Below are positions 29,101 through 63,588 of a stretch of DNA of 64,000 bases, piece by piece (the first letter of the stretch is position 1; each line of letters begins with the position of its first letter). The translations under genes and the position numbers were made by a program. Under the pieces are notes generated by a model that did not search any database, was not told the DNA's origin, and saw only the letters and a list, made by a program, of their open reading frames with translations. Origin of the DNA: Arbacia lixula (lineage: Eukaryota; Echinodermata; Echinoidea; Arbacioida; Arbaciidae); contig OZ022595.1 in the NCBI GenBank assembly GCA_963669155.1, positions 1,584,115 to 1,648,114 on the forward strand, read 5' to 3'.

Positions 29101-29216
29101 AATGCACGGTGTTCACGTTTACATACACGAGTAAGACGTGCTTGCTCGGTGATTCAAGTGTAGATACATCAATCTTTGAGAGACGAATTAGATCTCGAAC
29201 ATATCGTTCTATTTGA
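26088..29216 (+). CDS. Gene B: secreted CTLD-PAN lectin-like protein (3 coding exons)
   Basis: Exons 26088-26139, 28179-28553 and 28957-29216 join in phase 1 to give 228 aa. A signal peptide (MTYILHMLVLLQTF) occupies residues 1-17, a CTLD residues 18-142, and a PAN/apple-like module residues 143-228 ending TGA. The organisation, intron phases and splice-site sequences match gene A. No membrane anchor is seen. The CTLD lacks EPN/QPD and uses WHD, so classical mannose or galactose binding is not predicted. The intron before the CTLD is about 2 kb and lacks the retrotransposon found in A, but has an expanded minisatellite next to the CTLD acceptor. An AATAAA about 230 bp after the stop (near 29443) is a possible polyadenylation signal. 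Likely roles are immune or gamete recognition in extracellular fluid; this is inference. Confidence 0.87.
27480..28015. repeat. 40/80-bp minisatellite upstream of the gene B CTLD exon
   Basis: Units around GAACCATTCCGATCCAACCC repeat every 80-82 bp (27541, 27623, 27703, 27784, 27864), each made of two half-units of about 40 bp. Gene A has only a short remnant at about 12200-12330. Frames read through it are artefacts. Confidence 0.9.
28179..28553 (+). CDS. Gene B CTLD exon
   Basis: Acceptor TTCATACAG, donor ACAG|gtacgg, 375 bp, phase 1 to phase 1. It encodes the CTLD with DYWIGL, GKWHDREC and GYICERE. It is three codons shorter than the gene A exon, in the loop before GKWHD. Confidence 0.92.
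28957..29216 (+). CDS. Gene B PAN/apple-like exon and stop
   Basis: 260 bp, the same length as in gene A, with the same cysteine pattern (FIRCAALCQREEQC...TSKTC) and about ten amino-acid differences. It ends TGA at 29214-29216. Confidence 0.82.
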
Positions 29217-40751: not shown

Positions 40752-43700
40752 AGGGGGGGGGGGTTGACATGTCAGTAAACTTGGTTTGATATACTTTTTA
40801 ACAATATGGTGACTTTGTTACTCATGATTCACAAATCGCTAAAATGTGAATAATTCATCAAATGCAACATAGCGATATAACCGAGAGGTTTGGGAGATTG
40901 CAAGCAGCCATGTTTATTTTTAGTTACTTGTTACTGCACAGTGCACCTTGTGCGCTAGGGCAATTCCTATTTGAAATAATACATGTACATGCAAAACAAT
41001 TTTGCACTACTAAAAAGAAGACATAAGGTTCTTTTTTATAGATTTATCTTTTGTTTTGCTTAATTTTTTTCCTTAGAATGTTCCACCGGAGGGGTATACC
41101 TCTTGGGTTCTTGCTACTTCTTTGAGATGAACCCGGTCGAATTCTCTTCGGCTGAATTGTCCTGCAATGTCCTCGGGTACCATCTTGTTTACATCAACTC
41201 ACAGGAAGAACAGACAGCCATTGAGAGTGCAGCGTCCATTGCCGTCCCCGACTCGGACTTCTGGATTGGTCTAACCAAGGATGTAGACGGAGATATCATC
41301 TGGCTCGACCAATCAGCGACGGCGTATCGTAAGGTGTCGGATTCCTCGAGTTTTGATGACGGGACGACCTGTTTTCGGATGAAACACGATAGCAGCTATC
41401 GATGGCACGATGCCTCCTGCGTAGCCTTGTATGGATATATTTGTGAATATAGTAAGTGTTCCTCATTTATATTGAAATATATAAAAGATTGTAATGTAGT
41501 TTACATCGCCTCGAATAAAAAACAAGGAGACATTTATTCTAAAAAATTTCTCAGTCTGCTAGTCGACAGTGGCGCCACCGTATGGTAATTAGTCACAATA
41601 CGTAAAGCAAACACACGACCCAAATACAAACTCAGAAAAATGCATCGAGAGAGAAAGATATTTCAACATGGTAATCTAATTGTCAGTTACGAGCAAATCG
41701 TTCATCTGAAAATTATAGCCAATAGATTGATAGATCGCAGAATAAAAATAGCTCTCCCTCCTCCCTGCTTCAAAGCCTAATTAGCATAATGAGCTAATTT
41801 GCATATGTTTTGTATTGAGTTAAGTGCTCAATTCATCTCAGGAGGGCTAAATTTAAAAAATACCATTTTTCATGGGTATTTGGGGTCAAGAATTCTGTTT
41901 ATGGCATTTATTTATACATACAACCACAGATTCAGTGTAAAATTCAAGATTGTTGGCCTTATTTTCATTTTTAAAGGCTATCATTGTGTATTAATATTAG
42001 CCGGAATCACATGCTTCCATGTCTATCCATTGGTAGGGCTAAAATGAAAAACAATACCATTTCTTGGGTATTTTGAGTCAAGGATTCCATTTATGACATG
42101 TATTTACGCATACGACCATCGCTTCATGATAAAATCCAAGATGGCTGCCCTAACTTGCATATCTAAAGTCTATTATTGTGTACTGTATCAATAAACAGAA
42201 TCACATGCTTCCATGTCTATCTACTGGAAGGGCTAAAATTGAAATTAATACTGCTTTTCTAGTTTTTGTGGTAAGGGATTCCATTTATGACATTTATTTA
42301 TTCATGCGACCATCGTTTCATTGTAAAATCTAAGATGGCTGCCCTAGTTTCCATATTTAAAGGCTATTATTGTGTATTATCCGGAACTACATGATACCAT
42401 GTCTATCCAATGGAATAAAGTTCTCTGAAATTTTTAATGTTGTTTCCATGTCACTATTTATTTACATATCATACAATGACAGTATGCTTCAGTAGAAAAA
42501 AATATCCAATATGGCTGCTGCTAATTTGGAATAATCCAACGAATACAATTTGTATATGATATTACTTTGGGGCAAATATTTTATGCCATGTTTCTTTTGG
42601 AACGTTTATTTGAAGTTTGCGCTGTAATTACCCTTTGATCACACTGTACGCTACAAGTATATCACTGCAGTCAACATTATAAAAAAATCCAAATGGCTGC
42701 AAATGAGTGAATACACTTTAAAATTCGCACAAGAAATGCCAAAATGTACTGTCAAACGGCATTAACAATCACCCTTGTTACTTTTGCAAAGTGATAATTT
42801 TGCCTTTAATGTGTGCTCACTCAAGCATGACTGAATGGATTAGTGTGATTTTCACACGGAAGTTAGCCAATAAGTGAAGGTATAATCAGTAAAAAGTTAT
42901 GATATTTTACTTAGGGGGGGGGGGGCTTACTTTTTTGTTGTGTGTACTTATATGCCGGATTTTCTATTCAAATGTACAAAAATATGACACAAGTCAATAG
43001 GCCTAATGCATCCATGAATATTCATGAGCATCTCAGTTATCACGTGGGTGCAAGGTGGAAAAACCCATATGGCCCCATATGGGTTTTATATGACTCAGTC
43101 GACCCAGAAATAAGACCACATTGCCCATATACATACCTCATGGGGCCGTATGATTTTATTATCAGGGTTCTAGGTGGGACAAACCATATGGGCACCATAT
43201 GGGTTGAACATGATACATATGGGCCCCAGTAGATCCACACGATAGAGAAAGAGAGGGGGTGGGGGGGGGGGGGCGTCAGAGGGGGGATGCGGAGAGCATG
43301 GAGAGAGGGTGAGCTTGTGCATGAATTGTGATGTGTGAGAGATGTGTCATGGGAAGTCATAATGGTGGGAACAACATTGCATTCTCATGTACATCAAAGG
43401 TGCATCCCACATCCGTTATGCACTTACATGTATGATGTAGATTAAACCGAAAAAGAAGATGTTCAAATGACAAAAAAATGTATTACATACTTCTTTCCCT
43501 TTACTGGAGTACTGATAAACTTCAATATGCTTACAGAAAGCAGGCTCTAGCTGTCAGTAATTCTTTAATGTAGAATATGGTGATCTGATCAAGGATGTTT
43601 AAGCAAATGGAGTGCCAGCAGCCGATTCATTCATGCAAATTCATTGTACTCTCCTTCTAGTCACAAAAAATGCTTTACAAAGATTTTCTCTTTGATCTAT

Positions 43701-46700
43701 ATGTTCAATGATTCTCTAGATGATTTTTGCCTGGATTTGACGTATAAACAAAATCGGATGCGCAGAGGAATTTGCTTGCGCAGTTGTGACATGTAATACC
43801 TACGATGCATCTATAAAGATTCAATCGAGGAAAATTGTTACAATATGGCAAAAAGGCTCTAAACGTAATATCAAGTTGCAGTACAAAAGTCTCAAATTTA
43901 CAATGGTCCGCATGATATTCCATTACAAAAATGCATGAAACATTACTTTCAGAAATTTTCCTTTCCGAACAAGAAAAGGCCATATTCATAGTGTAAGCCA
44001 CATATTTCGGTGAAATGTGTCAATCCGTGTTTTTGTCAGTACTTTAGGCTTCCTATAGATTATGCCTTTACAATCACGGGGTGTTGTTACATATAGTTAC
44101 AACTAGGATTGTACTCTCTTTCTTCTCTCACCTTCTTGTTCTTTTATTTTCATCTTTCTACGCCTTTCCATTGTCTTTTCATTTCTCCCTTTCTTCTTCC
44201 TCTACCTTTTCGCTCTCCTCTCCAAACCATCTCTCCTCTCTGTCTCCTCTCTCAACCTTCCTTCACCTTTTGCATTCCCTCCTTCCACCTCGCTATCATC
44301 ACCCCATAAACTCCGCTCTCATTCTTCTCTCCCCCTCTTCCACCTAAACTTCCCTGTACCCCACCCATCGCATCACCCTTAGTCAACCCCTCCTGCAGCA
44401 CGGAATCATTCGATGGACTATGCTACTTCATCTCTTCAGTCCCTACCAACCACGACGACGCCGTTACGTCATGCGCCTCTTTATTCGGGAATCTAGTTTA
44501 CATCGAAACAGAAGAAGAACAAGACTTCCTCGTGTCCAGAATCACGTCATATTCGCCCACGGCAGACTTTTGGATAGGTAAGTGAAAACAAATAACCTTC
44601 TAACATGTCTAATGCATTGAAAGAGCCAATTACAAACAAGTCTAAATCCATTTTCCACCCAAATTGTATGATCATTATCAGAGATCCGCTCAATGGTCGG
44701 CTGTAAGGCTTCCTATTGAATAACAAAATTTTATGGGAAAGTACCTAATAATGCGGGTGCTGATAGATATCGCACTTCATTTTTTATGAGATGGTACCAT
44801 GGCAACGGACGCTAACATCCATGGGTAAACCCGCGACGAAGTTCACTCGTTACTAACAGTTCTGAATTATTGCACAAGATGCATCAGCAGGAACATTTGT
44901 CAAAGGCGACTCTAAGCACAAAGTAAGATGAAGTGAATTGATCAAGATAAAACAATGCATTCACACATTCAGTGACATAGTTCACACGATGCGCGGCGCT
45001 ACGGCGCAGCCCACCATGGTTGAGTTGACCCAGTCAACATGACGCAGGAATGTTTGTTATCTTTGCAAATGTAATCGTTTAGAGACGAACTGAAACAAGT
45101 CAGAGGCGACCCAAACGCGTGTCCGTGAAACCAAGCATTAACACATAGGTTGGCGTTGAGATATCAGCGATAGGAAAGAAAAACTTCGCTTAATGCATAG
45201 TTGACGTGTTACAGAATACACGGATTTGGCTAACAGCGTACTCACCGTTTAACTTCCCTTTTATTTCCCCTCCACCAATCTTTCCCTGTCATCCTCCTTA
45301 CTTTCCCGCTTCATCTGCTTCGCTTTCTTTCCCATTTTCCTCTCGTATTGACACTTCTCTATAATCACAGGTCTTACATTAACCTCCGATGGTTATGACC
45401 AAATATGGGGATCTGGCGCGAGGCTGAACTTTGAATACTTTGACCAGTACTCGTCTTTCAATGAGAACACACCCTGTTTCCGCATGAAAGCAGCGTGGGA
45501 TTACCAGTGGCACGATGCATATTGTAGCAGCCTGTTTTCATTTATATGTGAAGGGAACTCTGGTGAGTGTAGATACTATCTATCGACAAAAACTCATTTT
45601 CTATACTCTGATCATATAATTATATAATATGTAGTTGTCTGTCGAACCCTCCTATCAAGAGGATATGCAATGTTATATACCCAATAACCATTCGATGTAT
45701 TTAGAAAATGGTGACCATGCCCATTGGTTCATTCATACAAAGCTCAGCAAAACCACCCATTGGCCACGCCACGTCACGTGACGAAGATAATACACGTGCA
45801 CCTGGATCGGATTATTACATGAGCGGGCGTATTTTGCCAATGACGACCGACTCGCATTTTCCCACAACCAATAATGCCCGCTGTGTATCACGCATGTCAA
45901 ACCACAATATATTTCCTGTCATGAGCACCATGCACTATCAATAATACTGTGATTGCAGTTCCTGGTGGTTTGACATCCCTTGACTTCATAATGTGTAATT
46001 ATTGATTTCAGTTGTAATTTTGTTGTATTATATTTCAAATATCTTCTTTGTTAACACCTAGTAGGCCTACAAGCATGTTTGAATATTGGAAGCACAGACC
46101 TGGGCCCCGTTGCATAAAACTTACCATTAATGGTAACTATAAAGCAACATCGCTCGACAGCCAATCTAATTCCAGTTTTACATAGAAGTTGCCATTGGTA
46201 GGAGAGTCACCATAACCCTGTAGTACTTATTCCGTGTCTGTTTTAGTTTGTTCATCCAGTGAGGGATCATCCGAGAGCACCTCGAGCACGTCTAGTAGCG
46301 GCGAACAGTCATCATCAGCAGCGGGATCTACAAGCAGACAAGGTAACCCCCCCCCCTCTCCCCGTCCCTCAGATAGGAACTTAAAGGAAGAGTCCAACCT
46401 GAAATAACTGAAAAGCAAAGCAAAATATTGGTGAAGGTTTGACGAAAATCCGTTAAAGGATAAGAAAGTTTTGACGAAAGTTTCAATTTCGAGATGTCAC
46501 CTGCGAGGTGCTCTGCCATAATGTTGTGAGCTGTATAAGTCCATAAATTGATCTTTTTACTGTTTTTGATGAAGTAATAAATCCTTTTCACAGAAACATG
46601 TGTCTAGTGACATATCTAGTGCACAGGTAAAATTATATGCCCGTTAAAGAAAATTGACAATTTCCAAAAGTATATGAAAGAGCAACTCGCATGTAGTTAC

Positions 46701-49214
46701 GTCACAAAATTAAAAGTGTACAAAAGTCATAATTGTATCATCCTTTTGACGGATTTCGTAAAACCTTAACTAGTGCTTGTTTGATTTAAAACACCTTAAA
46801 TCCACGGTGGACTTTCCCTTTAAATGTAGGCCACACCACAATCAAGAGTAGGGTGAAAACCAGGTTGAGTAGACAAAAGCCCTATAGTGAAAAGATTAAT
46901 GACATCAAATTACAAATATTTAAAAAACCTCTCCATCCCTTGGTGACGTGAAGTAAAAAAACTAAAAGAGAGAGAAAAAATGGAAATCAAGTAGGAGAGA
47001 CGGGTCCTCGTGAAAAGAGATCATTAATCACACCAAAGCAAGACTCAGTCCTCTGACGTCACGACAATCCACCGCAAAAAACACATCATACGTCTCTCTT
47101 TCGATCAATAAAGGCTCAAGAGGTTATCAGGTAAAATCAATATGATGAAGGTGCCTATATAAAGTTGACGGATGTCAACGTTTTGAGATGTAATTAATAT
47201 GAATAATGCATTAATGCACTTAATAATCAATAATCATTTGAATTTTTGATTGGATTGCGTATATCAATTTTATTGAGTTGCCCAACCCATTGACCAACAT
47301 GTTATTTAAAGTTCATCCATACACCTCTCCTGCAATGCAGACAAATCATTGCAGTATCAATTAATGTCTACTTTAAAGTTGTTTATAGTAAGATTATTGA
47401 AGTGTCATCGATGACTTATGACGATGAACAGCTTTTCATACATATCATTAGTTACGTGACACCTGTACAAATTGTGGCAACCAAAAAAGTTTTTCTCATC
47501 CAGGTCATCATAAGAATCTATAAACCTTATGAATAAAGGCGTCAAGTTGTATTGATTGGGTAAGAACGAAGAACATATCTCATGATTGAGAGACTGTGAA
47601 GTACTGACTGGTAATTTTCCATGTCTGATATGTACCTCAAAACGTTAGAAATGATACAAATTCTCTTTTATGTGTTCTGCGTAGATGTTGGTGTCATCTA
47701 ACATGCTGTTACGAGTGTATCCATCTGGATCTGTCATAAATGTTGCTGAAAGGAGTTGCTCGATACAAAACTATGTTTTTTGTGCCGCTAACTGGCGTTT
47801 ATCAAATACAAACATTAAAATTTTGATACGGTAAAGCAAAACCCGTTTGCGCCCTCATGCATGTGAAGTTATGACGTCAAAGTGCAATTTCTCTAAATAC
47901 CATCCTATCACAAAACTCGTTCTCTCTAGGCTCGGATCTTGATCCCGTCTCTACCGTCTCTGAGCAGTGGCCGGAAGTGACGTCAACTGGCAGCCCGGTC
48001 TCACTACCTGTGCCTCCCTCTGCCCAGACCACTGCAGGTCATTACAAACCGCTCCTGGCCCCGTTTCATAAAACCTTCTATTTGTGGTAACTCTGTCATA
48101 AATGGTAATTACCATGGTAACATCGCTTACAGCCAATTGAAATCAAGGTTTCCATAAAAGTTGCCATTGGTTGCAAAGTTGTTATCAATGGGAAGTCTTA
48201 TGCAACAGGGCCCTGGACAGTTTGAGCGCAGTGGATATAAGTTTGTACCTTCAAGAATCAATATTTAACATTCATTTTGTTCACTCAAAGAAATATTGCT
48301 AAAAATATACAAAAGACGGAATGAAAAGCCCAGTGACGAAGGGCGTCTGGGATTAGATGAACTGCAAATGTACAGTAGGGAGAAAACAGAATCTAGATAT
48401 AAGGTGGTAGTACTATGGTATGTACAATGGTTATGTACGATTAACGCAGATTGCGCGTAATGAACAAGGGTAAAGACGTGGTTCAAGTGATCATGACAAA
48501 TGGAAGTGTATAGAATCTAGATTAACTCTGTTTGCCAGGCAAGGTGGCTCTCTTGGGCTTTTATGTGCAGAACCATGCAGAGTTTGGCCAACTCGCGTTA
48601 ATCGGCTTAATTCCGTTACATCATAGCGCATATTCTTTTGTTATTCGCTTGCCGAACAAAGCAACACGCGCACTGTTGTTACGCGTTGAAACCGAGTTTG
48701 CCAAACTTTTTTTTTTTTTTTTATGTATGTAACGTTTGTGAATAAATGTGGTACAAAAAGAGTTCAACGGTGTCCGACTCCGAGAAGATGAAGGAGATTG
48801 GTAGAATGTGTTACAGACGAATACCAATAGGAAGTTTATCGAAAATGTTATCTCATTTTTTAAAAGACATTTTAGGCACGCATCATGTAGTAAGGATAGA
48901 GTGCTCCATCCTGTCAATGAATGGCAACATCTTATTCTTGTCTTGTTTATCATGCAGGAGAAACCCCTATCCGTATGCGGACATCCTTAGCCCGAGCCTT
49001 GCCCGGCGACAAGGTGCTACCAGAGGCCTTGGTCTTCGCTAGATCGCAGCGTCCATCTGTCATACGGTGTGCGGAGTTCTGCGACAGCCAAACGTTGTGT
49101 ACACACTTTACGTTCAGCCGTGATTCGTCAACGTGTGCACTAGCCAATGCTGTGGACATCACATCCGGGGATTTTGGGTTCGAGCTCGGCGCGCGCTCGT
49201 TCGTCAGAGTGTAA
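38553..49214 (+). CDS. Gene C: secreted double-CTLD protein with Ser/Thr linker and PAN module (8 exons)
   Basis: Exons 38553-38564, 39313-39379, 41077-41451, 44383-44577, 45371-45562, 46247-46342, 47930-48037 and 48958-49214 join to 1302 nt, 433 aa. Residues 1-26 form a signal peptide split by a phase 0 intron (MTCQ, then IQKLLLVVLIS...). CTLD1 spans 27-151, CTLD2 152-280 (split by a phase 1 intron within DFWIG), a Ser/Thr/Pro-rich and probably O-glycosylated linker 281-348, and the PAN/apple-like module 349-433. All introns after the first are phase 1. Neither CTLD has EPN/QPD. No membrane anchor is seen. It reads towards gene D, tail-to-tail, 3.6 kb away. Last-exon similarity to genes A and B shows shared ancestry of the module. 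Confidence 0.85.
39313..39379 (+). CDS. Gene C exon 2 (signal-peptide core)
   Basis: Acceptor TTAATACAG, donor GAAG|gtaggt, 67 bp. It encodes IQKLLLVVLISRNINFSRG, hydrophobic then polar, followed by SCE leading into the CTLD. Confidence 0.75.
40005..40127. mobile_element. Palindromic MITE, second copy of 18006-18179
   Basis: Contains GCGATCTGAATGTATACGC...GCTACATCCGGATCGC and the right end GTTGATTATTTGCTTA; the left end is missing. It lies in an intron of gene C. A separate inverted pair (GGGCCCGTAACA / TGTTACGGGGCCC) flanks 40140-40254 next to it. Confidence 0.75.
40711..40761. repeat. (TG)n and poly-G tract
   Basis: About 40 bp of TG followed by a G run, in the intron before the first CTLD of gene C. 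Confidence 0.9.
41077..41451 (+). CDS. Gene C exon 3 (CTLD1)
   Basis: Acceptor TTTTTCCTTAG, donor TATA|gtaagt, 375 bp. Landmarks: CSTGG, GSCYFFE, SAELSCNVLG, DFWIGLT, DIIWLDQS, CFRMK, WHDASC, GYICE. The extra N-terminal cysteine pair marks a long-form CTLD. Confidence 0.92.
41800..42450. repeat. 193-bp tandem repeat in an intron of gene C
   Basis: Three to four units with a period of about 193 bp share ATTCCATTTATGACAT, CGACCATCG, AAATCCAAGATGGCTGCCCTA, GGCTATTATTGTGTATTA and CATGCTTCCATGTCTATCC. The AAGATGGCTGCC core resembles a YY1 site. Degenerate ATGGCTGC relics extend to 42710. Confidence 0.85.
43060..43270. repeat. CATATGGG-rich segment
   Basis: CATATGGGxxCCATATGGG palindromic blocks occur around 43065-43085 and 43185-43220, followed by a G-rich tract at 43250-43275. 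No coding evidence. Confidence 0.4.
44383..44577 (+). CDS. Gene C exon 4 (CTLD2, N-terminal half)
   Basis: A long pyrimidine tract precedes acceptor CACCCTTAG; donor ATAG|gtaagt, 195 bp, phase 1 both sides. It encodes NPSCSTESFDGLCYF, AVTSCASLFGNLVYIETEEEQ and ends DFWI. An alternative AG 17 bp downstream would break the phase. Confidence 0.85.
45371..45562 (+). CDS. Gene C exon 5 (CTLD2, C-terminal half)
   Basis: Acceptor ATAATCACAG, donor TCTG|gtgagt, 192 bp. It encodes GLTLTSDGYDQIWGS, CFRMKAAWDYQWHDAYC and SFICEGNS, completing CTLD2. Confidence 0.88.
46102..46222. mobile_element. MITE family G, copy 2 (right end lost)
   Basis: GGGCCCCGTTGCATAAAACTTACC and internal GCTCGACAGCCAATC match the family. 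It ends about 25 bp before the acceptor of exon 6 of gene C. Confidence 0.7.
46247..46342 (+). CDS. Gene C exon 6 (Ser/Thr-rich linker)
   Basis: Acceptor TCTGTTTTAG, donor CAAG|gtaacc, 96 bp, phase 1-1. About two thirds of its residues are Ser, Thr or Gly (SSSEGSSESTSSTSSS), a likely O-glycosylated spacer. Confidence 0.75.
46385..46819. mobile_element. TTAA-target MITE, family T, copy 3 (diverged)
   Basis: 435 bp between TTAA sites. The ends AGGAAGAGTCCAACCTGAAA and GGTGGACTTTCCCT have drifted from the family pattern. It lies about 40 bp after exon 6 of gene C. Confidence 0.8.
47930..48037 (+). CDS. Gene C exon 7 (Ser/Thr/Pro linker)
   Basis: Acceptor TCTCTCTAG, donor GCAG|gtcatt, 108 bp, phase 1-1. 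It encodes a Ser/Thr/Pro-rich segment (GSDLDPVSTVSEQWPEVTS, then PVPPSAQTT). Support is phase and composition; the donor is slightly non-consensus. Confidence 0.65.
48057..48213. mobile_element. MITE family G, copy 3
   Basis: GGCCCCGTTTCATAAAACC at the left and TTATGCAACAGGGCCC at the right. It starts 20 bp after exon 7 of gene C. Confidence 0.8.
48861..48945. repeat. Half copy of the 3625-3770 inverted repeat
   Basis: AAAGACATTTTAGGCACGCATCATGTAGTAAGGATAGAGTGCTCCATCCTG matches one arm at 3628-3680. It ends at the acceptor of the last exon of gene C. Confidence 0.65.
48958..49214 (+). CDS. Gene C exon 8 (PAN/apple-like) and stop
   Basis: Acceptor TTATCATGCAG, phase 1 entry, TAA at 49212-49214. 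The core VIRCAEFCDSQTLC...DSSTCALA has the same cysteine spacing as genes A, B and D; the C-terminal FELGARSFVRV aligns with FERRIGARTYRST of gene A. Confidence 0.83.
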
Positions 49215-50995: not shown

Positions 50996-52430
50996 AGCAA
51001 AACCCAAATCACTGATATCCTTTGTTTCTTTCCGTGAACCAGTAGAAAAAAGACACAACAAATTGATACTTTAAATGTAAATGCTGTCAAATAGTAGATT
51101 TTATTGTTTTCATGTTAACCTTGACATATTTCAACAATTCTCGTATTGATAGCTTATTTGAAAGTTTGTAGCGAAGAACAGTTATCTGTATTCATGATAC
51201 ATAAAATACTCGGACCCTGTACATTAAACAATTATTGTATTTTTGTTCTATATTGAATAGCAATGAGAGGACAAGTTTGACAAGTCAGCGTTGAGTACAG
51301 CTAGATTTATTTGTGTTCGGTTCAGGACCTCCTGTGATATACATGTTTGTTAGAAATCGCATTTATATAGTTTCGTTTGATATATTCATACGTATACAAT
51401 CTTCATTTCTTACCGTTACCAAAGTACAATGAAAGATATTATATATTTCCAGATGAAGTAATAGGCTTACATATGTATTGAATAAGTATTGTGTATACAG
51501 TATCCTAAACTTTATGAATGCAACGCTCCTGCCTGATCTGGTGAGCTACACAAATTATGTTGGTTAATTAATGGGTCTCTTTGTCGATAAACGAAATGAA
51601 TATATATACAAACATGATAATATAACGGATTGAATCTTACAGCAGTAGTAACAGTACAAAAAGCCTGGATTCAGCAGCCACCTGCCTATAGCAGCCACCT
51701 TCGACTCCTCCGCAGAGAAATTCAGCATTCAGCATTCGCAATCTCAGAAGCACTGTATAGCTAGGCTGTAACTCGAAACTTATCGATATGCCTATGGAAT
51801 ATGTTGCTTACTTCAATCAACTCCCGTCCGGAAATTATTGAGGCAAAATTATTTTAAAAGACAGGATAAAGAATATTTCTCGATTAAATAAAATATGTCA
51901 AGATAGAAGATATATTTTAATGTGCATTTGTAGCCGTATGTATTTTTTTCTTTTATTAATTGAAATTAATATTTATCGTGCTACCATAGACGAAGTAAGA
52001 GTGCACTATGCACGGCATTTGCACTGTCTGTCAATCGATCGGAGAGAGAAACAATAGACACGAAGATGAGGAAATTCTTACGAACAGCGAAAAAGAGAAC
52101 ACTTGATTATCATTAACGTGGGTATTTTAATTCAAGATCCTGTTTTCGGCAAGTTGTCGTTCTTTTGAAATTGTTATGCCGTTTATTCACTATTCAAAGC
52201 AACGCCATAATGCCCAAGCAAGCGGGTTTTTCATCATACGCAGCCCTTGTTGCTATCTTTCCTTATATCCGGTAGGCTGCCGGTGGGGCTCCATTCTCTT
52301 CTTTTCAAAATGTGGACATGAATAAGTTGCAGATTCTTGTAATGAACGAATGTAGTACCAAAGTGGTGTCATCATATCCATTGTTACGCCGGCTTCTGGT
52401 TCTTCAGAACATCACTCAAATAAGACTTGC
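50996..52430. other. Intergenic, no gene seen
   Basis: AT-rich spacer between the convergent genes C and D. CAGCAGCCACC is repeated near 51673-51710. An AATAAA for gene D could lie on the minus strand near 52190. No exon recognised. Confidence 0.55.
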
Positions 52431-52805: not shown

Positions 52806-53059
52806 TTATACGATCGTGATGTATTGGGCGTCATCAAAGACCGAATCCACCCCTTTTGTGATGGGCGATCCCGCCACAGCATCCGAGAACCACATATTCG
52901 AATTATCGTTGTCGTCTGTCCAGTACAGGACGCCCTCATGCGACGCGATTCCGAGAGGCCTATTGCCCTCGCTTAGGAAGGTGTCATCGTAACCGCTTCC
53001 ATCCAGACTGAGGGAAATGATTTTGTCGACCCCGTCGTCTGTCAGGAAAATCTTACCAG
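52806..53059 (-). CDS. Gene D last exon (propeller blades 5-6)
   Basis: Acceptor CTTTTCGCAG on the minus strand, phase 1 entry, TAA at 52808-52806. It encodes GKIFLTDDG, SLSLDGSG, GVLYWTDD and ends YITIV. Confidence 0.85.
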
Positions 53060-55942
53060 CTGCGAAAAGCATATCAATAAATCAGACAAGAAAAAACATT
53101 AAGAGAATCGGTTGCCAGGTTTTTGTGTTAGTTAAAATTTGTTGTATGCTTAATGAGCACTTAATCAAAGGGCTAGTTCACCCTGAAAATAAGTTTGTTT
53201 CAATAAAAGCAGAAACATGAAAGAAACATATTAGTGAAGGTTTTACGAAAATCCGTCAAATGATAAGAAAGTTATGATCTTTTGAAATTTCAATTTTGTG
53301 ACGTGACGTGCAAGGTGCTCTCCCATATTTTGTGTACAATATAACTGTTCTTTTTCTGTTTTTGACAACAAAATGATTTTTTTTTCATACAGGTATGTGT
53401 TTAGAAGCGTATTTCTGATCATGTATCAAATGCACAGGTAAATGGATGCACACTTTTTTTTTTTTTAGAAAATGCATATTTTCGAAAAAAAAAAAACTTT
53501 CGCACAACATATGGGAGAGCACCTCGCACATGACGTCACACAATCAGTACTCTAAAGGATTATAACTTTTTTATCCTTTGACGGATTTTCATCAAACCTT
53601 CATTAATATGTTCCTTTCATGTGGCTTCCTTTACTGAAAACAACATTGTTGGGCGGTAACAAAGGCTGGCTATAGACTAACAACAGGCTGTCAAGTCGTA
53701 TCGAAAAGCGGTCGAGTGTCATGGCGAGGACCGCCTTTCGATACGACTTAACAGCCCGTTGTTAGTCTATAGCCAGCCTTTGTTACCGCCCAACAATGTG
53801 CTGATTTTAGCGACTCTTGGACTTGTTGGTCGCCCGTAATTACCGGCCTGTGGCTTTGTCCCTTTTGTCCTTTGTCGGTAACTTGTTACCGCCGGTCAAT
53901 GGGAGGTGCATCAACGGTCTATTGTTGGTCAAGTACCCGGATACGCCGGCTATTAGTATTGGACCATTTATAGTTAGTGCGCTGCACTGACCATAGGGTA
54001 TTTAAACCCCTGCTTACTACAATTTTGTATCACACCTGACGAAGTGTTGCAGCGGCACACGAAACGTCGTGATCTTTTCGATACCGTTTACCTTACATTG
54101 CGAGACAAACGATTATAAGTAGCTATCTATCCGCAATGAGTAACATATTTAGCAAAGCTATTGTTGCTTCATTTTCCTAAGTGCCGGTGGTTTCATTGGA
54201 CAGCTTGACTATTTCCTTTGGCATTAATGTGTCATCTGTTCATATTATGTAAGTAAGGAATATGCAGTAGTGAAAATGTTGAAAAGTGCACTATTTTCAA
54301 CACCAAAGGCTCAATTTCCTTTGAAGATGCCGTGTGCGTTGAGTAGTGCCGAGGCGACAATGCGTGTCTTGAGTGAAAGCCAACGATGCAATATTTGTTT
54401 CAATATGATAATGATAGATGGGATGTGTTTTAATGTTGTCCACGGCCCTGTTTCATAAAGTAACGCAGGACTTAATGCACGACTGGTGACCTGGGTCCCG
54501 TTGCATAAAACTTACCATTAATAGTAACTCTGTCATCAATGGTAACTGACATGGTAACACTGCTCGACAGCCAATCAAATTGAAGTTTTTCATAGAAGTT
54601 GCCATTGAAGGCAAATTTTAATCATCAATGGTAAGTTTAATGCAACAGGGCCCTGTTTTAGTACTAACTAAGATTTTGTTCCTGTTTTAACATAGTAGGA
54701 ATGAATTTCCTACAATCCTAATCAATTTTTTTTTTCAGACGCTTGTTAAGCATTAAGCATGTTCATCTCCGGAGATCAGATTTCAACTTCAACTTAGGGT
54801 AATCAAAATCATTGAGAATCTGACTTGGCCCCTAGAACAGGTCACCAGACGTGCCTAAAGTCATGCGTAACTTACGAACAGCTTTATGAACCAGGGTCCA
54901 GGGGATCGAATTACGTTTTTGGTTGAGTGTCTATAAATATAAATATATACATGAAAACGTTTTTGGTTGGGTGTATATAGATATAGATATATATACGTGC
55001 AAATGTGTGTGTATGTGTGTGTGTGTGCGCGCGCGCGTGTGTGTATGTGTGTGAGTGTGCGGGCGCGGATCGCCGGCGAATAGTAAAGTGTGCTCATAAC
55101 CCTTCCAGCCACGAGACATAACAGACGATACTGTATGACGACCATAAATCTGATTTCATTATTCACATCCGTCAGCGAATCTTTTCATCACAACCAATAC
55201 CGTTTTGTGATTTTAGGACTAGGATCTCCAATGAAAGAAGCAGGGCAAAAGCTGCAGATGATGTTTTGGGCAGGTAAGGACGGAAAACAGCTTTGTTTAT
55301 ATCAGAGACTTGTGACTGGTGTGTTGTCTGTTGAAGGTGTAGATACCATATTTGGTTGCCGGTTGACCACATTTGGAAGGTGTGTAAGAGGTTGTATGCA
55401 TGTATGCATGCGTGGCCATATTTGGGTTGGTCCATAATAATATATCGCGAGACCGCGTCTCTTGATCTGTTTGCGGTGTAGATATTTTCTCTTCTATACC
55501 CGTCTATGTTGTATCTATTCGAAAAGCATTTACCGACGTGTTTATTTGTTTATTTATTTGTAATGTATTTGTAAAATGCTTCCGCAAAGAAGCAACAAGG
55601 TCGATATTTAAGATTCGTCTATTTTTATGAGAGCAGTTTAGGCTAAGCCAATTAAGAAAGGAAATATCTATTAGTATTGTACAGTCATCATGGTGATGAT
55701 TGATCGCTAGATTTGAATTTCTCTTAGCTTTATCACATTTTATTTGAATTATGTGAATTATGTCATTGTGTGACTTTGTATGCTACACATGTATTTTGCC
55801 TTTCGAATTGATGAAGAAAATCTTTTTTTTTTCCAGATGTTCTCCCGACAAAATTAAATCGTGCTGCTGTTTACGTTAAGATATTTTTGTCATTTGTCAA
55901 ATACTTGTTTCAATCTACGCGTTTAAACATTTTGAGACTTAT

Positions 55943-55982
<40 letters not shown>

Positions 55983-57499
55983 GTGTGTGTGTGAGTGTAT
56001 TGCTGTCACAAACCATTCGGTGTTTCCCAACGTACCTTTTAAGTCTACCGTCAAACTGTTGGTCTTATCCAGCCCGATGTTAGCGATGGTGACAAGGTTT
56101 GTCCCATCAAGGTCGATCCGCCCAACAAATACATCGTAGGTAAAGTACAGAGTCCTAAAAGAAAAAAATATAAAACGAGACATTCTTGTGGACAAGTATA
56201 AAGTGGTCTGTATTGGCAAACTCATGCACATACCTGGGCTGGTAAATGAACGGTGACACCATGCATCGTTCTTGGTGACATCATCTATTCATTAGTAATC
56301 AGCGGCAACGCTCTTGAAAGCAAACTGAAATCGCACCAATAATAACATATTAACATTTTCATAGACTTGCCTGAATGGTCATGTGCTAACAAAATTTAAT
56401 TAATTATCATCTAAGATAAAGGGGCGAGAGTAAAATTTGGGAAAGAAGATCAGAGTGAGGGATAGATCAGGAGAAGATGGCAAAAATCACATTGCAAAAG
56501 GAAGGAAATCTACCCACACCAGGATTTGAACTGGGGTCGCGCGTTCTTCCAACAACGCCTTTTTCCAATTCACCCACAAATATCCCCATTCACTTCACAC
56601 GAAATGCATAAAAGGGGATAGAATGATTTGGAAATCAATATTCAAGCTAGCTTTTCACCATGATCCCGACATCTGATTAAAAAAAAAACGAAAAAAAAAA
56701 CGGAATTCGGAGGTCGCATTTACGTTACGCACGTAAAAATGCGCCAACAGTTTTTTTGAAATGCCTGAAATGGCCTGAAAAATATGCCAAAAGAGTACAG
56801 CATTTTAAAAATTTAAAAAAATTGTTTTGTCATTTACTTTATGCATGTCTAATATTATTAGCTATAGATGATGACTTCTAGAGCTACTTTCGGCAATATA
56901 TTTTCATTAAACTGCTTGTAGACGACGTCACGGTTATGCCATGACCTTGAAAATGTTACAATGACAAGTTCACATATATACCGATACATGATCAAAATTT
57001 GATAACACATGACACATGCATTGTTGAGATATAGATGGCACAAAAAAGGGGGGGGGGCATGGAATGAAAATAAAGAATAAAGAATAGGGAAAATTCGAAC
57101 GAAATTAAGAGGTGATCTGTCATTCATGACAGACTTAAAAATCGGCAATAGTAGCTTTCAAAGGTTTACATGCACTATGTTTTGCCCTAACGATATCGCA
57201 ACAGCGCCAGCTACAGACCAAAAATATAATTTCCGTACATGCAAATTACATTGCAAAGCTGATGATAATTTGAATCGAATATCGGTTTGATTTCTATGCA
57301 TAGTTTAATTGAAGCTCTTGTGTGAGAATAACAGCCACCGTAATGAAGATTAAATATATTGATATGCATCTTTTCTTTCTTTTCTTTAAGAATTACTTCC
57401 TCCAAATGTTTCACGTATTGCTGTTGCCATAGGTGTGATGGTGTGCGCATGTGTCAAAGATAATAGAGGAGAAAGAGAGAGGGAGATAGAGCAAAGTGT

Positions 57500-57544
<45 letters not shown>

Positions 57545-60500
57545 GGTGCGGGAAGGGGGTGGGCGGGGTAGGATGCGTCCAACCCTTCTACCCCGAGTAC
57601 CCCTACGTTATCCCAGCTCGCCTTACCCTGTTTCATTCACGACATGGACAGCACGCGGGTCGGCTAGTCCCGTGGCGAGGTCTGTGGGTGTGGGTGAAGC
57701 ATCGTCCAGGTCGTACCAGGCAATCTGCCCCGAGCTGGAGAAGGAGGCATATAGTCTGCGACCCACCACATCCAGAGTGATGTCAGCCACGCCTGCAAAG
57801 TGGAACGAGCAGAGAAGTTACCGGCAATGCGAACGACCCGTTCCTATGATCATCCTTGTCGTAGCTAATGCGACCGGCTCGTTAACACGGATGCAGTTTC
57901 TGTTCGCCATAACCACTATACTGATTGCACTAATCGCAGGTTTTCGTCACTGCGACGAGGCGATGGATCCCCACGGCATAGCAATGTCGATGTATGCAGT
58001 AATATGATTGCATTGCGGTGACTGGTCAACCGTAGCGTTATATTTTGCTCTGAATCACAAACAATGTGTCTGGTCCTGATAATGTCAAAAGTGAAAATGT
58101 AATTCAATATACAAAGAATTCTTACAAAATTTATGAAATGTCAGAAAGCCTGATCCCAAAATATTACACATCCTTTGACGTTATGATTTTCAAATTTAAA
58201 ATTTCAGCCTGATTCGACTTGTGACTTTTGGTGTATTACATTGCAAAAGTGTCAAAAGAAACACCTAGTATAACGAGTTAGATATAACATATAACAAAAT
58301 TTGAAATCTATACCAGTTCTGCCGTTAGCAGGCAAGATGATTGCAGATGACCCATCAGGTTTGAAACGGCCGATCTGTACGCCTTGTTCTAGAGCGTACA
58401 CGTCGCCCAACACTCCGTCATACGTTGCTTTGGACGGAGACGCCACATTTCCCGTAAGCCTCGTGAAGGTCATAGCGTCAAGGTCACTTATCCAGACTCC
58501 ATCGTCTACATCGCCAACAAGTATCCGTCTTGCCGTATTGTCGAATAAAAAACTGGGTGAATTGCGGTAACCTAACGTAGAATGAGGAAACAGCCATGTT
58601 TAATTTTTGTTTTATATAATCGTTATGTAAAAAGTTATATTTAACTTTTGTCTAAATCTATACAAAGGTTCATCAAGTTACGTTTAATGTACTTATTACA
58701 AACAGAGGATTACAGCTTTATAAAATAAATATTTCCCTTTGGCCTAGGCTTCCTCTACGATTTAAAACATGACATCATAATTGCACCTTCTGCATATTCT
58801 CATGAACATCCATATTTAATGGAATGTCTATATAACGTAATTACAAAAGTAATGTTTTTCTTTGCTTAGGTTAAGTCTATTTTTTATGATTTTAGGACCC
58901 GATTTTAGGGTTGCACAGTGTATGAATATCCATATAATGTAGCATAAATCAAAAGCACTTGATCATTGAAATATGATTTTAGAAAGAGCGCCATGCGTTT
59001 AGTCTTTCAAAAGTTATTCTTTCGAGAGTTCTGTAAAAATACTGCTCAGAGAGGAGAGAAAAATTGAGAATTTATAAAGTTGAGAGAAGGAGAAACAGAG
59101 TGTTCTTTTAAAACGGTCTGCCCAATTATATCCTTATTAAATAAACCATGATAAAAGAAGACCACAATCATTTATCCGTCCGGATCAGGGCAAAAGAGAT
59201 GAATATTTGCTAGTGGTAATCGTTTGTCTCGCAATGTATGGTCAACGGAATCGAAAAGTTTGTATCACACCAGACGAAACGTCGTGATTTTTTCGATTCC
59301 GTTGACCATACATTGCGAGACAAACGACTACCACTAGCCAATTATCCGTAGTGAGTAACATATTTAGCATTAGAGATGAATATTAATCCGTAATGATATC
59401 TTAAAATAATGTGAGGACGTGAGGAAACTGAACATTTGAATGACATGTGTGTATGTGTATGTATATATGTGTATGTGCCTTTGAAGCACTGTGTAGTCTG
59501 TGTTTGACACGTTGTATACATCCCCAAACTCTCATAGCACTATCCTACCTTCAGGTGTCCTCTCATACAGAGTGTACAAGTCATGGCCCTCCATGGTCGC
59601 TGCCGGGAAGGGTGATTGTGCCAGCATACAACTGCGAGTCGAACTATCGAATGCAAATGCGGAGCAGTTTTCGTTCGACATGCAGCGAGAGCCACAACGG
59701 ATGTAGTTCTGCGAGGTCCGGGTCTCTAGCGGCTCCAGCGGGCCCGTGTTCTGCGCCGACAGTTGGAATTCCTTGACCGCACCAACATAGTCAGTTGTCG
59801 CTGTAAATCACGGATAACAAATACATTACAGTCAAATATCCCTACGGTATGATATTAAAGTAGGTAGATTCAAACCATAAAAAGAGAGAGAACAAAATCT
59901 TAAAAAACATTTAAAGTACAACTGGTTCAGAAAGATTATAACTTTTCGTCTGTTAAACTTAATTTTCCTAGCTCTCCGGTATGGATTCACCATCTTGTGG
60001 AAGGAAGTCTTCGATTGTATTCATTGTTCGAGGATCCCTCAACATATCCTCCATGACAACCGCATCCAGGGCTAGCCTCTCCTTCGATCGTGTCAAAAGT
60101 TGTAGAAAGCTAATTGAACAGTTCTAAGTTCTAAGTTATGCCAAAATTATCATCTCCAACATACATGGCAGATATGCATACTTTTTACAGCAACATGTTG
60201 AATTTGACAGCAGTTTGAGAACGAATATCTTGAGCAAGGGTCCGGGGTCCTGGGGAAGAACAGTGGTTTGTTTACTGTCAGGGCTACCCTGGAAAAAGAA
60301 GACGGAATTAATACATGAACAAACAAACAAAAAATATCTAATTGAGATTAATTCTGAATCGAAACGTTTTACCCGTCTCGCAGATAAAGCCCTCCGATCT
60401 ATCACACCCCTCGTCCGTCCATTTGAACGAGTTGTCTCCGTCGAGAACGAAACAGATGGAGCCGAAGTCGAAAGGACTTGCGGCGAAGTCCGAGTAGTTG

Positions 60501-63500
60501 AGGTACCCGCCATTCATCCAGATGAATTCGTGGAAGTTGGGCTGAGTAAGGCCGAGCCAAACATGGGGCAGATCTAGAGATAACAGCGAATGTAAAAAGG
60601 TGTTAATATGTTAGTTTGCAGTCCCAACTTTGAAAGTGCCCCAAATTTACCAAAAATTATGAGAAATTATGTCAACCCTTTATGAAGCGATATTATACAC
60701 TGCATATCATGACCACAATGGTATTTTTTGTAGAAGGGGGCGAGTAAGTTGTTTTTGTTTGTTTGTTTGTTTGTTGTTGTTGTTGTTGTTGTTTTGTTGT
60801 TGTTGTTGTTGTTGTTGTTTTTTTTGGGGGGTGGGGGTGGGGGGTGGATTATAGGTCTTTTAGATGGGCGAGCACTGCCTGGCATTAAAATTGGTAATTT
60901 TGCGTCTTTTTCCCCGAACCCCCCCCCCCCCCCCCCTTTGATAAAAAGCTTGTGACGGCACTGGCATAGGAAATTCATGGATGGGGTAGTATCTGGAAAG
61001 CGCTTTAAAGGAAGGCAGAGAATACGTTGGGAGGAGGGTGTGGAAGACCAGCTCGAGATTCCCCTTGTTGCAGATTACAACTAGATAGATATGTATAAGC
61101 GGACCACATCTGTTTATAGCAAGGACTTGCTTTGGATACGCCATCATCATCGTGTCAGAAAAATAATAGTTCTATGTGATTTGTGTTTTACATGAGCAAA
61201 AACGCACCATTGGCTCATAAACGGTTAAACCAAATGACCATGCACCTGTTACAACCACATACAAAGACTCACTGTTAGCTTCCGCTAGGTCCGTGACGAA
61301 CGTCCACTCGTCCTCCGTGTTGATAGAGATCAGATAGCCAGAGTTGTCACTATTGCACAGCGTTACAGCGGCGCTATGGATGTACGTGGAGGTGTTTACG
61401 TAGGGGCGATAACACGACGAGCTGAATTCTACAGCTGGGGCTACACAACCTAAAAATGGTGACGAGATACAAAGGAATTTACGGTTATACTCTTTCTGGT
61501 ACTATCCATAACAATGGAGGACGCCCCTGCGAAGCAGTTGACAAACTGAGGGGATTCCCTGGGTATTAAGACAGAAACGAATAAAAATACGTTGTAGGAG
61601 AACAGAGGAGTAAGATTTATTCCAACAGGGGAGCGGAGTAAACGAGTTGGGGAGAGTCTGGAATAGGGGTTTCGTTAGCAATTGAAATTTGAATAGCTTT
61701 TAAGTGCAATAGTGTAAGCTCGTTAGCCATTTCCATCGGAATTTCTTTTCATTTTAAATCATGGAAATTGGGGGTGTCCTTAGCATTTGAAATTTTGATA
61801 GCTTTTAAGATAGTGACTTTTACTTCGATGGTGCACAATGTGCAATAGTCATGATCATGGTAATAGTGTAAGGTCGTTGGCCGTTTCCACAGTCGTTTCT
61901 TTTTTTTTTATCTTAATCATAAAATGTACAGAGAAACAAATTGGTCGTGAATTCATACGAAGCTTGAAGACAGGTAGAGCGAACCTGTGGTGTTGGGCTT
62001 CGGATATTCGCAGATGACGTTGTAGTACGTTTGGCAGCTCTTGTCATGCCAATGCCAGTCGTATTCATGAGACATCCTCAAACAATTCGAGCCCTCGTTC
62101 ATGGGATCAAACTCATCACCCCAGTGCAGGAATTCCAGAGGTTGGCCGTCCATCCATTGGAACTGCAAAGCATTGATCTGGGTGATCCCGAGCCAGTAAT
62201 CCCGGGTCATGATCTGAGAAGCGAGGAGGTCGACGATGGCAGCATTCTCGTCAGCGGTGTCGATGGATACCATCCAGGCGCCGACGGCCTCGCAGGTCGA
62301 CCGCGCGTCATTAAGAATTGCCGTGCCTTCGCTGATGTAGTAACAGCTGGAGTTGATCCGTGTGAATCCCGACGGACATCCTGAAGATGTTGGCAAATAT
62401 GACATCATCAGAAACGTTTTTTTGTAACTTTCCGTGAATACAAAGTCCTAATTTTGACGGAAGGACTCAAGTAACTTTAAAGATTTCTATTTAGAATGAT
62501 CAAAATGTTTCGTCACTTGTATTGACATCACTACAACACAGCATGATGTTACATTGGATATCTTAGACAAGAATTGATGTATCTTTGTCCATATATTACA
62601 GGCACCTACGCAATGATTGTCGGGAATAATACCAATCAACATCAATCACTCAAATTGAAGTGAATTGTCACCTGCTTCTTTTTGTCAAATGAGGGCAGTA
62701 GAGCAATGGCACATAATATGACTGCAAAGGCAACTTCTACCGATGAAAAATGTTTCTGCTCCGTGGAAAAAAAAAATAGGAGCAGCAATAATCAAACATG
62801 ACTGTTTTGTAATATTTCACATATTGATATTGTATCCAAATTCTGAACTCTCCTTTCCCATAGGAAAAACTGTGGCTCAGTGATAGATGCCAAGAAGTAC
62901 CCTGCGTTGAGAAATAGAGTTCATCAGGCTCTTTTCCCAACATCTAGGGCATGTAAACACGTGATTCGTATCATTTTCACAAAGATTATACAATACAGAC
63001 GTGTGAGATTTGGAATACCCTTTAAGAAACTTGAGAGGGGCATATTGAAAATGCTCGGAAATGGGTTTCCCTGTTCTTTCTGGTCCACATCGAGAACAAA
63101 AGCAAACCTCATTTATGGTAAAGTGATAACGATATAATGGAATCTTCTCAAGTTTTCCACTTTTCATACTGCAAGGTGGTGTATTTTCTTGAGACAGCAT
63201 CATCTAAATGTTATAGATATAGAGAGGGCTGACAACGGTGCAACAGGAAAATAAGTTATACATACAAAATTTCGATGCAAGATGAAATGAAAAAGTAGAG
63301 ACCTAGATATCATAACCATTAAGAAAGAACTATACGCAGCATGTACGAAACAATGTAAAATAGAAATAACGAGGGAAAGAAATTGAATTAAACCATCCTG
63401 CGTAACACTGTATCAAAACACTAAAGTGGAATAGTCATACAAATGGACACTGGGAAGAGGGGTGGGTGGGGGTGGGGGGGGGGGCGGGGGAAGCAATAGT

Positions 63501-63588
63501 GTTCGCGTGCCAATGTGTTCTTACCTGCCTCTGCACACAGTACTCCAATGTTTACACACGTGCTTGTTGCCAAGAGACAGTAAACACC
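52806..63588 (-). CDS. Gene D: CTLD-CTLD-PAN-YWTD beta-propeller protein (at least 9 exons)
   Basis: In minus-strand order the exons are 63588-63525 (tentative), 62380-61985, 61449-61273, 60573-60373, 59800-59549, 58571-58314, 57792-57627, 56154-56036 and 53059-52806. They join to 1887 nt with no stop until TAA. Counting from the tentative leader exon, CTLD1 is 22-153, CTLD2 154-279, the PAN/apple-like module 280-363, and six YWTD-type repeats 364-628. The propeller is recognised by repeated G-x-[LIV]-[YF]-x-[TS]-D and I/R-x2-LDG strings, for example LYFTYD, RIDLDG, KIFLTDD, SLDG and VLYWTDD. YWTD propellers occur in LDL-receptor-family and nidogen proteins and bind proteins. No membrane helix follows, so a secreted product is likely. 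The initiator ATG is not identified; it lies upstream. CTLDs lack EPN/QPD. Confidence 0.8.
53169..53648. mobile_element. TTAA-target MITE, family T, copy 5 (right end lost)
   Basis: AGGGCTAGTTCACCCTGAAA at the left and an interior with GTGACGTGACGTGCAAGGTG. The right terminus is cut at the boundary with the following hairpin. It lies in the last intron of gene D. Confidence 0.75.
53644..53798. repeat. Long hairpin, arms about 65 bp
   Basis: CATTGTTGGGCGGTAACAAAGG... at the left is repeated inverted at the right (CCTTTGTTACCGCCCAACAATG) with very few mismatches around a loop of about 25 bp. It is followed by a segment to about 54165 whose tail matches 59295-59370. Confidence 0.85.
53799..54165. 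repeat. Repeat tail shared with 59255-59370
   Basis: CGAAACGTCGTGATCTTTTCGATACCGTTTACC and GAGTAACATATTTAGCA recur at 59276-59370. The GACGAAG...CGAAACGT string resembles sequences next to Penelope-like elements, but no coding part is present. Confidence 0.45.
54446..54895. mobile_element. MITE family N, copy 3, interrupted by family G
   Basis: The outer ends CCCTGTTTCATAAAGTAACG and CTTACGAACAGCTTTATGAACCAGG belong to the N family in reverse order. A complete G element (54493-54653) is inserted. Confidence 0.7.
54493..54653. mobile_element. MITE family G, copy 4 (complete)
   Basis: 161 bp, GGGTCCCGTTGCATAAAAC to GTTTAATGCAACAGGGCCC, with internal AATGGTAAC inverted blocks. It is the best-preserved copy of the family here. 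Confidence 0.85.
54896..55945. other. Intron of gene D, no gene seen
   Basis: Two TATAGATATAGATATATA-type runs and a (TG)/(CG) tract lie at 54930-55070. A plus-strand segment 55216-55275 has AG and GT borders but no homology; I do not call it an exon. Confidence 0.5.
55946..55992. repeat. Poly-A and (TG)n tract
   Basis: About 32 A followed by GTGTGTGTGTGTG, 44 bp downstream (minus strand) of the donor of the blade 4 exon of gene D. Confidence 0.95.
56036..56154 (-). CDS. Gene D exon, propeller blade 4
   Basis: Minus-strand acceptor TTTCTTTTAG and donor AAAG|gtacgt, 119 bp. It enters in phase 2, the only non-phase-1 internal boundary in the gene. It encodes LYFTYDVFVGRIDLDGTN. Confidence 0.82.
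56160..57620. other. Intron of gene D
   Basis: About 1.5 kb with poly-A-interrupted stretches near 56680-56700, a G-run near 57050 and a (TG)n tract at 57499-57540 close to the blade 3 exon. No other gene seen. Confidence 0.6.
57627..57792 (-). CDS. Gene D exon, propeller blade 3
   Basis: Minus-strand acceptor CACTTTGCAG and donor CAGG|gtaagg, 166 bp. It encodes VADITLDVVGRRLYASF, QIAWYDLDD and ends VHVVNET. The phase 2 donor matches the next exon. Confidence 0.83.
58314..58571 (-). CDS. Gene D exon, propeller blades 1-2
   Basis: Minus-strand acceptor TACGTTAG, donor ACTG|gtatag, 258 bp. It encodes LFDNTARRILVGDVDDGVW, ISDLDAM, LGDVYALEQ and RFKPDGS, two YWTD-like blades. Confidence 0.83.
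58580..59548. other. Intron of gene D
   Basis: About 1 kb, AT-rich, holding the hairpin at 59210-59338. No gene seen. Confidence 0.6.
59210..59338. repeat. Hairpin with 47-bp arms
   Basis: CTAGTGGTAATCGTTTGTCTCGC... pairs with GCGAGACAAACGACTACCACTAG around a loop of about 35 bp holding CGAAACGTCGTG. The right arm and beyond match 54080-54165. Confidence 0.85.
59549..59800 (-). CDS. Gene D PAN/apple-like exon
   Basis: Minus-strand acceptor GTGATTTACAG, donor GAAG|gtagga, 252 bp, phase 1-1. The core YIRCGSRCMSNENC...STRSCMLA has the cluster's C-x3-C-x5-C-x11-C spacing. Here the module is internal, followed by the propeller; in genes A-C it is C-terminal. Confidence 0.83.
60373..60573 (-). 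CDS. Gene D exon, CTLD2 C-terminal half
   Basis: Minus-strand acceptor TTATCTCTAG, donor ACGG|gtaaaa, 201 bp. It encodes VWLGLTQPN, FIWMNGG, SICFVLDGD, KWTDEGC and GFICET. WTD stands where WND is usual. Confidence 0.88.
60764..60945. repeat. (GTT)n and G/C homopolymer tracts
   Basis: GTT triplets at 60764-60820, a G-rich run to 60845, and a C-run at 60919-60937. Long frames here are artefacts. Confidence 0.9.
61273..61449 (-). CDS. Gene D exon, CTLD2 N-terminal half
   Basis: Minus-strand acceptor CATTTTTAG, donor AACA|gtgagt, 177 bp, phase 1-1. It encodes CVAPAVEFSSSCYRPY, AAVTLCNSDNSGYLISINTEDE. Confidence 0.83.
61985..62380 (-). CDS. Gene D exon, CTLD1
   Basis: Minus-strand acceptor ACATCTTCAG, 396 bp in phase 1. 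It encodes the whole CTLD: CPSGFTRINSSCYYIS, ARSTCEAVGAWMVSI, DYWLGIT, FQWMDGQPLEF, CLRMSH, HWHDKSC and VICEYPK. The donor ACAG|gttcgc is weak; it was chosen because it keeps the phase with the next exon, and the frame otherwise runs to a stop 10 codons later. Confidence 0.88.
62440..63524. other. Intron or upstream region of gene D
   Basis: No CTLD-like or other exon recognised. A G-rich tract (TGGGTGGGGGTGGGGGG) lies at 63463-63490. Confidence 0.5.
63525..63588 (-). CDS. Gene D candidate leader exon
   Basis: Minus-strand segment between acceptor TTTTTGACAG and donor GCAG|gtaaga, 64 bp. Read in the frame that joins the CTLD1 exon in phase 1 it gives GVYCLLATSTC and GVLCAEAG, a plausible end of a signal peptide with an Ala-x-Ala cleavage site. 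The start codon would be in a further upstream exon, as in gene C. No homology supports it. Confidence 0.35.

Follow-up and report, generated by a model that had tools for sequence, protein, structure and literature searches.

We analysed a 64,000-nucleotide stretch of the genome of the sea urchin Arbacia lixula (contig OZ022595.1, C20:1584115-1648114; hereafter the window), in which an initial annotation had proposed a gene of unusual domain order on the minus strand between positions 52806 and 62380. In our judgement these positions probably do belong to one gene, whose product would be a secreted protein with two C-type lectin-like domains (CTLDs) and a PAN domain joined to an LRP/LDLR-type propeller of six blades. 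The order CTLD-CTLD-PAN-propeller, with neither EGF nor LDL-A modules in the chain, was supported as first described, the join between PAN and propeller by splice signals and phase alone. It is plausibly a new combination of known parts.

An exon chain in one frame

The eight exons proposed between 52806 and 62380 were confirmed, and we added a probable ninth, E0, upstream of them. The resulting chain (E0 to E8) comprises 628 codons with no internal stop and ends in TAA, and all eight introns have GT-AG borders, which bears out the earlier statement that the frame is kept throughout. Seven of the eight exon junctions are in phase 1; the junction between E6 and E7 is in phase 2. From E0 to E7, the donors match the consensus at 8, 6, 7, 6, 7, 5, 7, and 8 of nine positions, and the weakest, that of E5, is no better than 40% of the GT sites in the region.

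The exons follow the predicted domains. E1 (61985-62380) encodes the whole of CTLD1, E2 (61273-61449) and E3 (60373-60573) the first and second halves of CTLD2, and E4 (59549-59800) the whole PAN domain. The propeller is divided over the last four exons: E5 (58314-58571) for blades 1 and 2, which are not recognisable alone; E6 (57627-57792) for blade 3 and the beginning of blade 4; E7 (56036-56154, entered in phase 2 and left in phase 1) for the remainder of blade 4 and the beginning of blade 5; and E8 (52806-53059) for the remainder of blade 5, blade 6 with the sequence LYWTD, the final strand, and the stop codon. Beyond the stop, a possible poly(A) signal AATAAA lies at 52182-52187 on the minus strand, with a further AATAAA at 51957.

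Intron 7 contains two fold-back repeats between 53193 and 53799, with arms of 142 nt (81% complementary) and 71 nt (96%), which are the likely cause of its length of 2976 bp. A 99-nt repeat occurs twice, in intron 7 (54056-54154) and in the intron between the PAN and propeller exons (59271-59369), the copies being 86% alike; the latter copy lies within an almost perfect fold-back (59205-59342).

Similarity of the C-terminal region to LRP and LDLR propellers

The predicted propeller takes up residues 364-628, 265 in all. Its best PDB match was LRP4, for which nine stretches together gave E = 3.9e-46 and the strongest of them 8.7e-8, with LRP2, LRP6, nidogen (E = 2.8e-6), and LDLR among the other matches; the second half alone matched LRP4 at E = 4.8e-50. 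The Smith-Waterman score against human LDLR was 105, where the maximum among 1000 shuffled sequences was 60. Compared with itself, the region gave peaks at lags of 41 (z = 3.9) and 85 (z = 3.8) residues, and its summed blade-to-blade score of 353 exceeded all of 300 shuffles (maximum 338). The LRP4 match, the LDLR score, and the spacing of the internal similarity together place the likeness to propellers beyond chance, and from length, period, and the register with LDLR we infer six blades.

The blades differ in how well they can be told individually. Each was scored with a profile built from five blades of human LDLR; the numbers of shuffles out of 500 that reached the observed score were 228, 266, 12, 109, 0, and 1 for blades 1 to 6, so that blades 3, 5, and 6 singly beat most shuffles. 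The YWTD-like pattern itself occurs once among the open frames of at least 25 residues in the window, in blade 6, and the region reached 15.9 bits with the Pfam profile Ldl_recept_b, below the cut-off of 21. It is thus homologous to known YWTD propellers while falling short of the profile cut-off and lacking the motif in most blades, and the initial count of six recognisable YWTD-type repeats was too generous.

Three results count against assigning the whole region to this class. Scored one by one, blades 1, 2, and 4 remain inconspicuous, residues 1-140 of the propeller alone found no PDB chain at E ≤ 1, and propellers of the NHL type match as well, namely the designed Pizza6 (E = 1.4e-13) and PknD (5.5e-4). 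Because NHL-type designs match too, the YWTD assignment depends on the rank of the matches and on the LDLR register. Blades 1 and 2 would presumably still fold as blades. Their faintness, and an Ldl_recept_b score under the cut-off, could also be read as signs of a decaying gene whose propeller is a relic that has lost the motif from its first half; with nine exons free of stops and frame breaks and every splice border kept, we regard this as very improbable.

The join between the PAN and propeller exons

The PAN and propeller exons appear to be spliced together. The donor after E4 matches the consensus at 7 of 9 positions, a value reached by 5.2% of 593 GT sites, and the acceptor before E5 has a pyrimidine fraction of 0.80, reached by 4.8% of 479 AG sites. 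The intron they would bound is 977 bp long, the other seven measuring between 521 and 2976 bp, and contains no AATAAA, whereas two follow the final stop. Upstream of E5 the open frame runs back only nine codons to a stop and holds no Met.

Other features of this junction speak against the join. No homology, transcript, or relative spans it, and agreement in phase is by itself a one-in-three event. E4 read on into the intron (59535-59549, minus strand) yields five codons and then a stop (GRIVL*), near the position of the stops in three related genes of the window, genes A, B, and C. The intron also holds three ATTAAA and three TATAAA sequences, and a frame opening with ATG at 59370/59361 that includes a strongly hydrophobic stretch (2.97) as well as several GT sites in phase 1.

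These features would fit two neighbouring genes on the same strand: one for CTLD-CTLD-PAN, ending like genes A, B, and C with the stop in the PAN exon, and downstream of it one for a secreted propeller with a first exon of its own, for which the hydrophobic ATG frame speaks. That frame, however, is located in a repeated element, the gaps between neighbouring genes of the window are larger (~14.7, 11.9, and 3.6 kb), the 977-bp intron lacks AATAAA, and a good donor after PAN agrees in phase with a good acceptor before E5. We therefore think two genes unlikely. A similarly low probability goes to the alternative that one gene yields both a short CTLD-CTLD-PAN protein, when this intron is retained, and a long one that includes the propeller: the stop in the retained intron falls near that of the related genes, but the intron has three ATTAAA and no AATAAA. 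A single gene in which PAN and propeller are joined remains our preferred reading.

The CTLD and PAN head

Two CTLDs are certainly present. Pfam Lectin_C matched the chain in two stretches (E = 1.1e-27), and PDB sequence searches at E ≤ 0.001 returned 131 sequences for CTLD1 and 47 for CTLD2, with multi-CTLD receptors on top. Calcium-dependent sugar-binding C-type lectins carry the motifs EPN or QPD together with WND. By eye, EPN and QPD are absent from both domains and WND is replaced by WHD and WTD, so that the chain lacks the motifs of this group and glycan binding by the head, one of two possibilities raised at first, found no support. In the absence of EPN and QPD from both CTLDs, the head is more likely to bind protein than to bind sugar through the usual site.

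The PAN/apple domain was identified by PAN_1, which scored 25.7 bits on E4 alone (cut-off 21.4) and 25.1 bits in the genome scan; on the whole chain the score was 20.5 bits, under the cut-off. The four-cysteine core C-x3-C-x5-C-...-C can be seen by eye. Against the PDB the domain had no match at E ≤ 0.001 and 21 at E ≤ 1, the best at 0.0044.

No further domain was found in the chain, as judged from pattern scans and from the stop codon that closes E8. The LDL-A pattern had no match in the 64-kb window, and two loose EGF patterns had 3 and 11, mostly in CVCV-type repeats and none in the exon chain. NCBIfam gave no match.

5′ end and secretion

E0 (63525-63588, minus strand; GVYCLLATSTCVNIGVLCAEA/G) has AG and GT borders, a donor matching at 8 of 9 positions, and phase 1 into E1. 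It ends in AEA/G and may represent a signal peptide's core together with its cleavage site. An in-frame stop lies two codons 5′ of E0, so any Met would need a further exon, and no signal peptide start was found in the 12 kb examined for upstream exons. The sole candidate there, a frame that opens with ATG, is hydrophobic at its start, and has a good donor (63607), was rejected, since its exit phase is 0 or 2 and E1 requires phase 1.

At the other end, the chain found stops directly after the last propeller strand and includes no membrane segment. Secretion is plausible, and given such an end a secreted bridging protein is our best guess.

Related genes in the window and the genome

The window contains three further genes of the family, all on the plus strand. 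Gene C (41077-49214) is a collinear paralogue in which CTLD-CTLD-PAN, assigned with Pfam, is followed by a stop and no propeller; its exons (41077-41451, 44383-44577, 45371-45562, and 48958-49214) are all entered in phase 1, and an upstream exon was not found. It aligns with the head of the propeller gene over 327 collinear residues (26.9% identity, E = 8e-35). Gene B (28179-29216; CTLD exon 28179-28553, PAN exon from 28957) and gene A (12407-13454; CTLD exon 12407-12790, PAN exon from 13195) are CTLD-PAN genes with the stop within the PAN exon. The paralogue and these two genes mark CTLD-CTLD-PAN as a local family, to which the propeller gene belongs by its collinear domains and phase-1 exons. 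Of the four members it alone carries a propeller: a propeller search of the window found only its own four exons and nothing in genes A, B, or C. The cluster continues outside the window on the same contig, where at C20:2158843 (L036) a PAN domain beside a CTLD split in two adds another gene to the CTLD-PAN family.

Minus-strand frames between 6632 and 11731 encode a reverse transcriptase, an RNase H, a phage-integrase-like recombinase, and a GDSL lipase-like product. The element looks like a tyrosine-recombinase retrotransposon, presumably of the Ngaro/DIRS type. Scans of the window for tRNA genes and with Rfam returned nothing.

We searched the whole assembly (606,990,701 bases in 590 contigs) with the propeller and obtained nine matches, four of them its own exons and five weak, so that the search of the 607-Mb genome revealed no second copy. 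The closest other propeller belongs to an LDLR-like gene (L028, C5:20127293; E = 7.2e-9, 32%). A genome scan with Ldl_recept_b, in which 150 of 170 candidates were scored, yielded 80 matches, and one with PAN_1 yielded 92 at E ≤ 1; the nearest starts of the two kinds are 88,628 bases apart. The propeller described here is not among the 80, and a similarly worn propeller elsewhere could therefore escape that count. No CTLD was found near other LDL-receptor-B matches in 13 loci of ~3 kb (~1.5 kb on each side), and viral contigs held no relative. A repeated 17-mer matched 12 stretches in genome contigs and 3 in viral contigs, which we ascribe to chance.

Possible origin and function

The gene probably arose among clustered CTLD-PAN genes by acquiring, behind its PAN exon, a propeller block bordered in phase 1, at the very point at which its three sisters in the window have their stop. 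In the protein, the CTLD-CTLD-PAN head would most likely recognise a partner, either a protein or the matrix, independently of the usual calcium-dependent sugar site, and a second protein-binding face would be offered by the propeller, so that the molecule would bridge two extracellular partners. The propellers of LRP6 and nidogen bind proteins, and the initial suggestion of a propeller that usually does so holds as far as the relationship to LRP and LDLR goes; it is weakened by the worn first half. On the sequence as it stands, we propose only tentatively a lineage-specific, undescribed extracellular bridging molecule, in which a lectin-like/PAN head is combined with an LRP-type propeller that closes without an EGF partner, perhaps with a switch between short and long forms.

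If the exons form one transcript, domain accretion would have been caught in the act, with a sister gene 3.6 kb away that keeps CTLD-CTLD-PAN and has a stop at the splice point. A propeller that works without an adjoining EGF module would likewise test what the YWTD-type fold needs. Each part is familiar, so little new would be learnt about mechanism.

Comparison with known systems

In those parts of the literature that our search reached, no description of the order CTLD-CTLD-PAN-propeller was met, and C-type lectins and YWTD/LDL-receptor proteins are named separately (PMC6626399, PMC4336488, PMC2527298, PMC7037938, PMC2614417, PMC3534327, PMC7853314). Among the closest systems are genes A, B, and C, which share the CTLD(-CTLD)-PAN order and the phase-1 exons and differ in ending within the PAN exon. 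In the PDB, CTLD1 and CTLD2 were matched best by multi-CTLD receptors (yolk sac IgY receptor, lymphocyte antigen 75, mannose receptor), which consist of many CTLDs in a row and have neither PAN nor propeller. Nidogen is likewise extracellular and has a YWTD propeller; it is rich in EGF modules and has neither CTLD nor PAN.

For LDLR, exon borders can be compared as well. The E6/E7 junction aligns to residue 529 of human LDLR, in phase 2, and E7 is 119 nt long, which we take to coincide with the LDLR exon 10/11 border and the length of exon 11; E7/E8 would lie three codons beyond the exon 11/12 border and agree with it in phase. Both correspondences are suggestive only. In L028, the LDLR-like gene of this genome, one exon holds blades 3-6, unlike in human LDLR, which speaks against homology of these introns; in the gene described here the same blades are split over E6-E8. 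L028 (1-3483) runs in the order EGF, propeller, EGF-like, hydrophobic segment, and FDNPVY tail.

LRP4, LRP2, LRP6, and LDLR themselves are the best PDB matches of the propeller, and its blades 3-6 lie in the LDLR register. In place of the adjoining EGF and LDL-A modules and the membrane anchor of the LDL receptor/LRP family, all absent from the chain found, the present protein would combine a propeller bearing one literal YWTD with a CTLD-PAN head.

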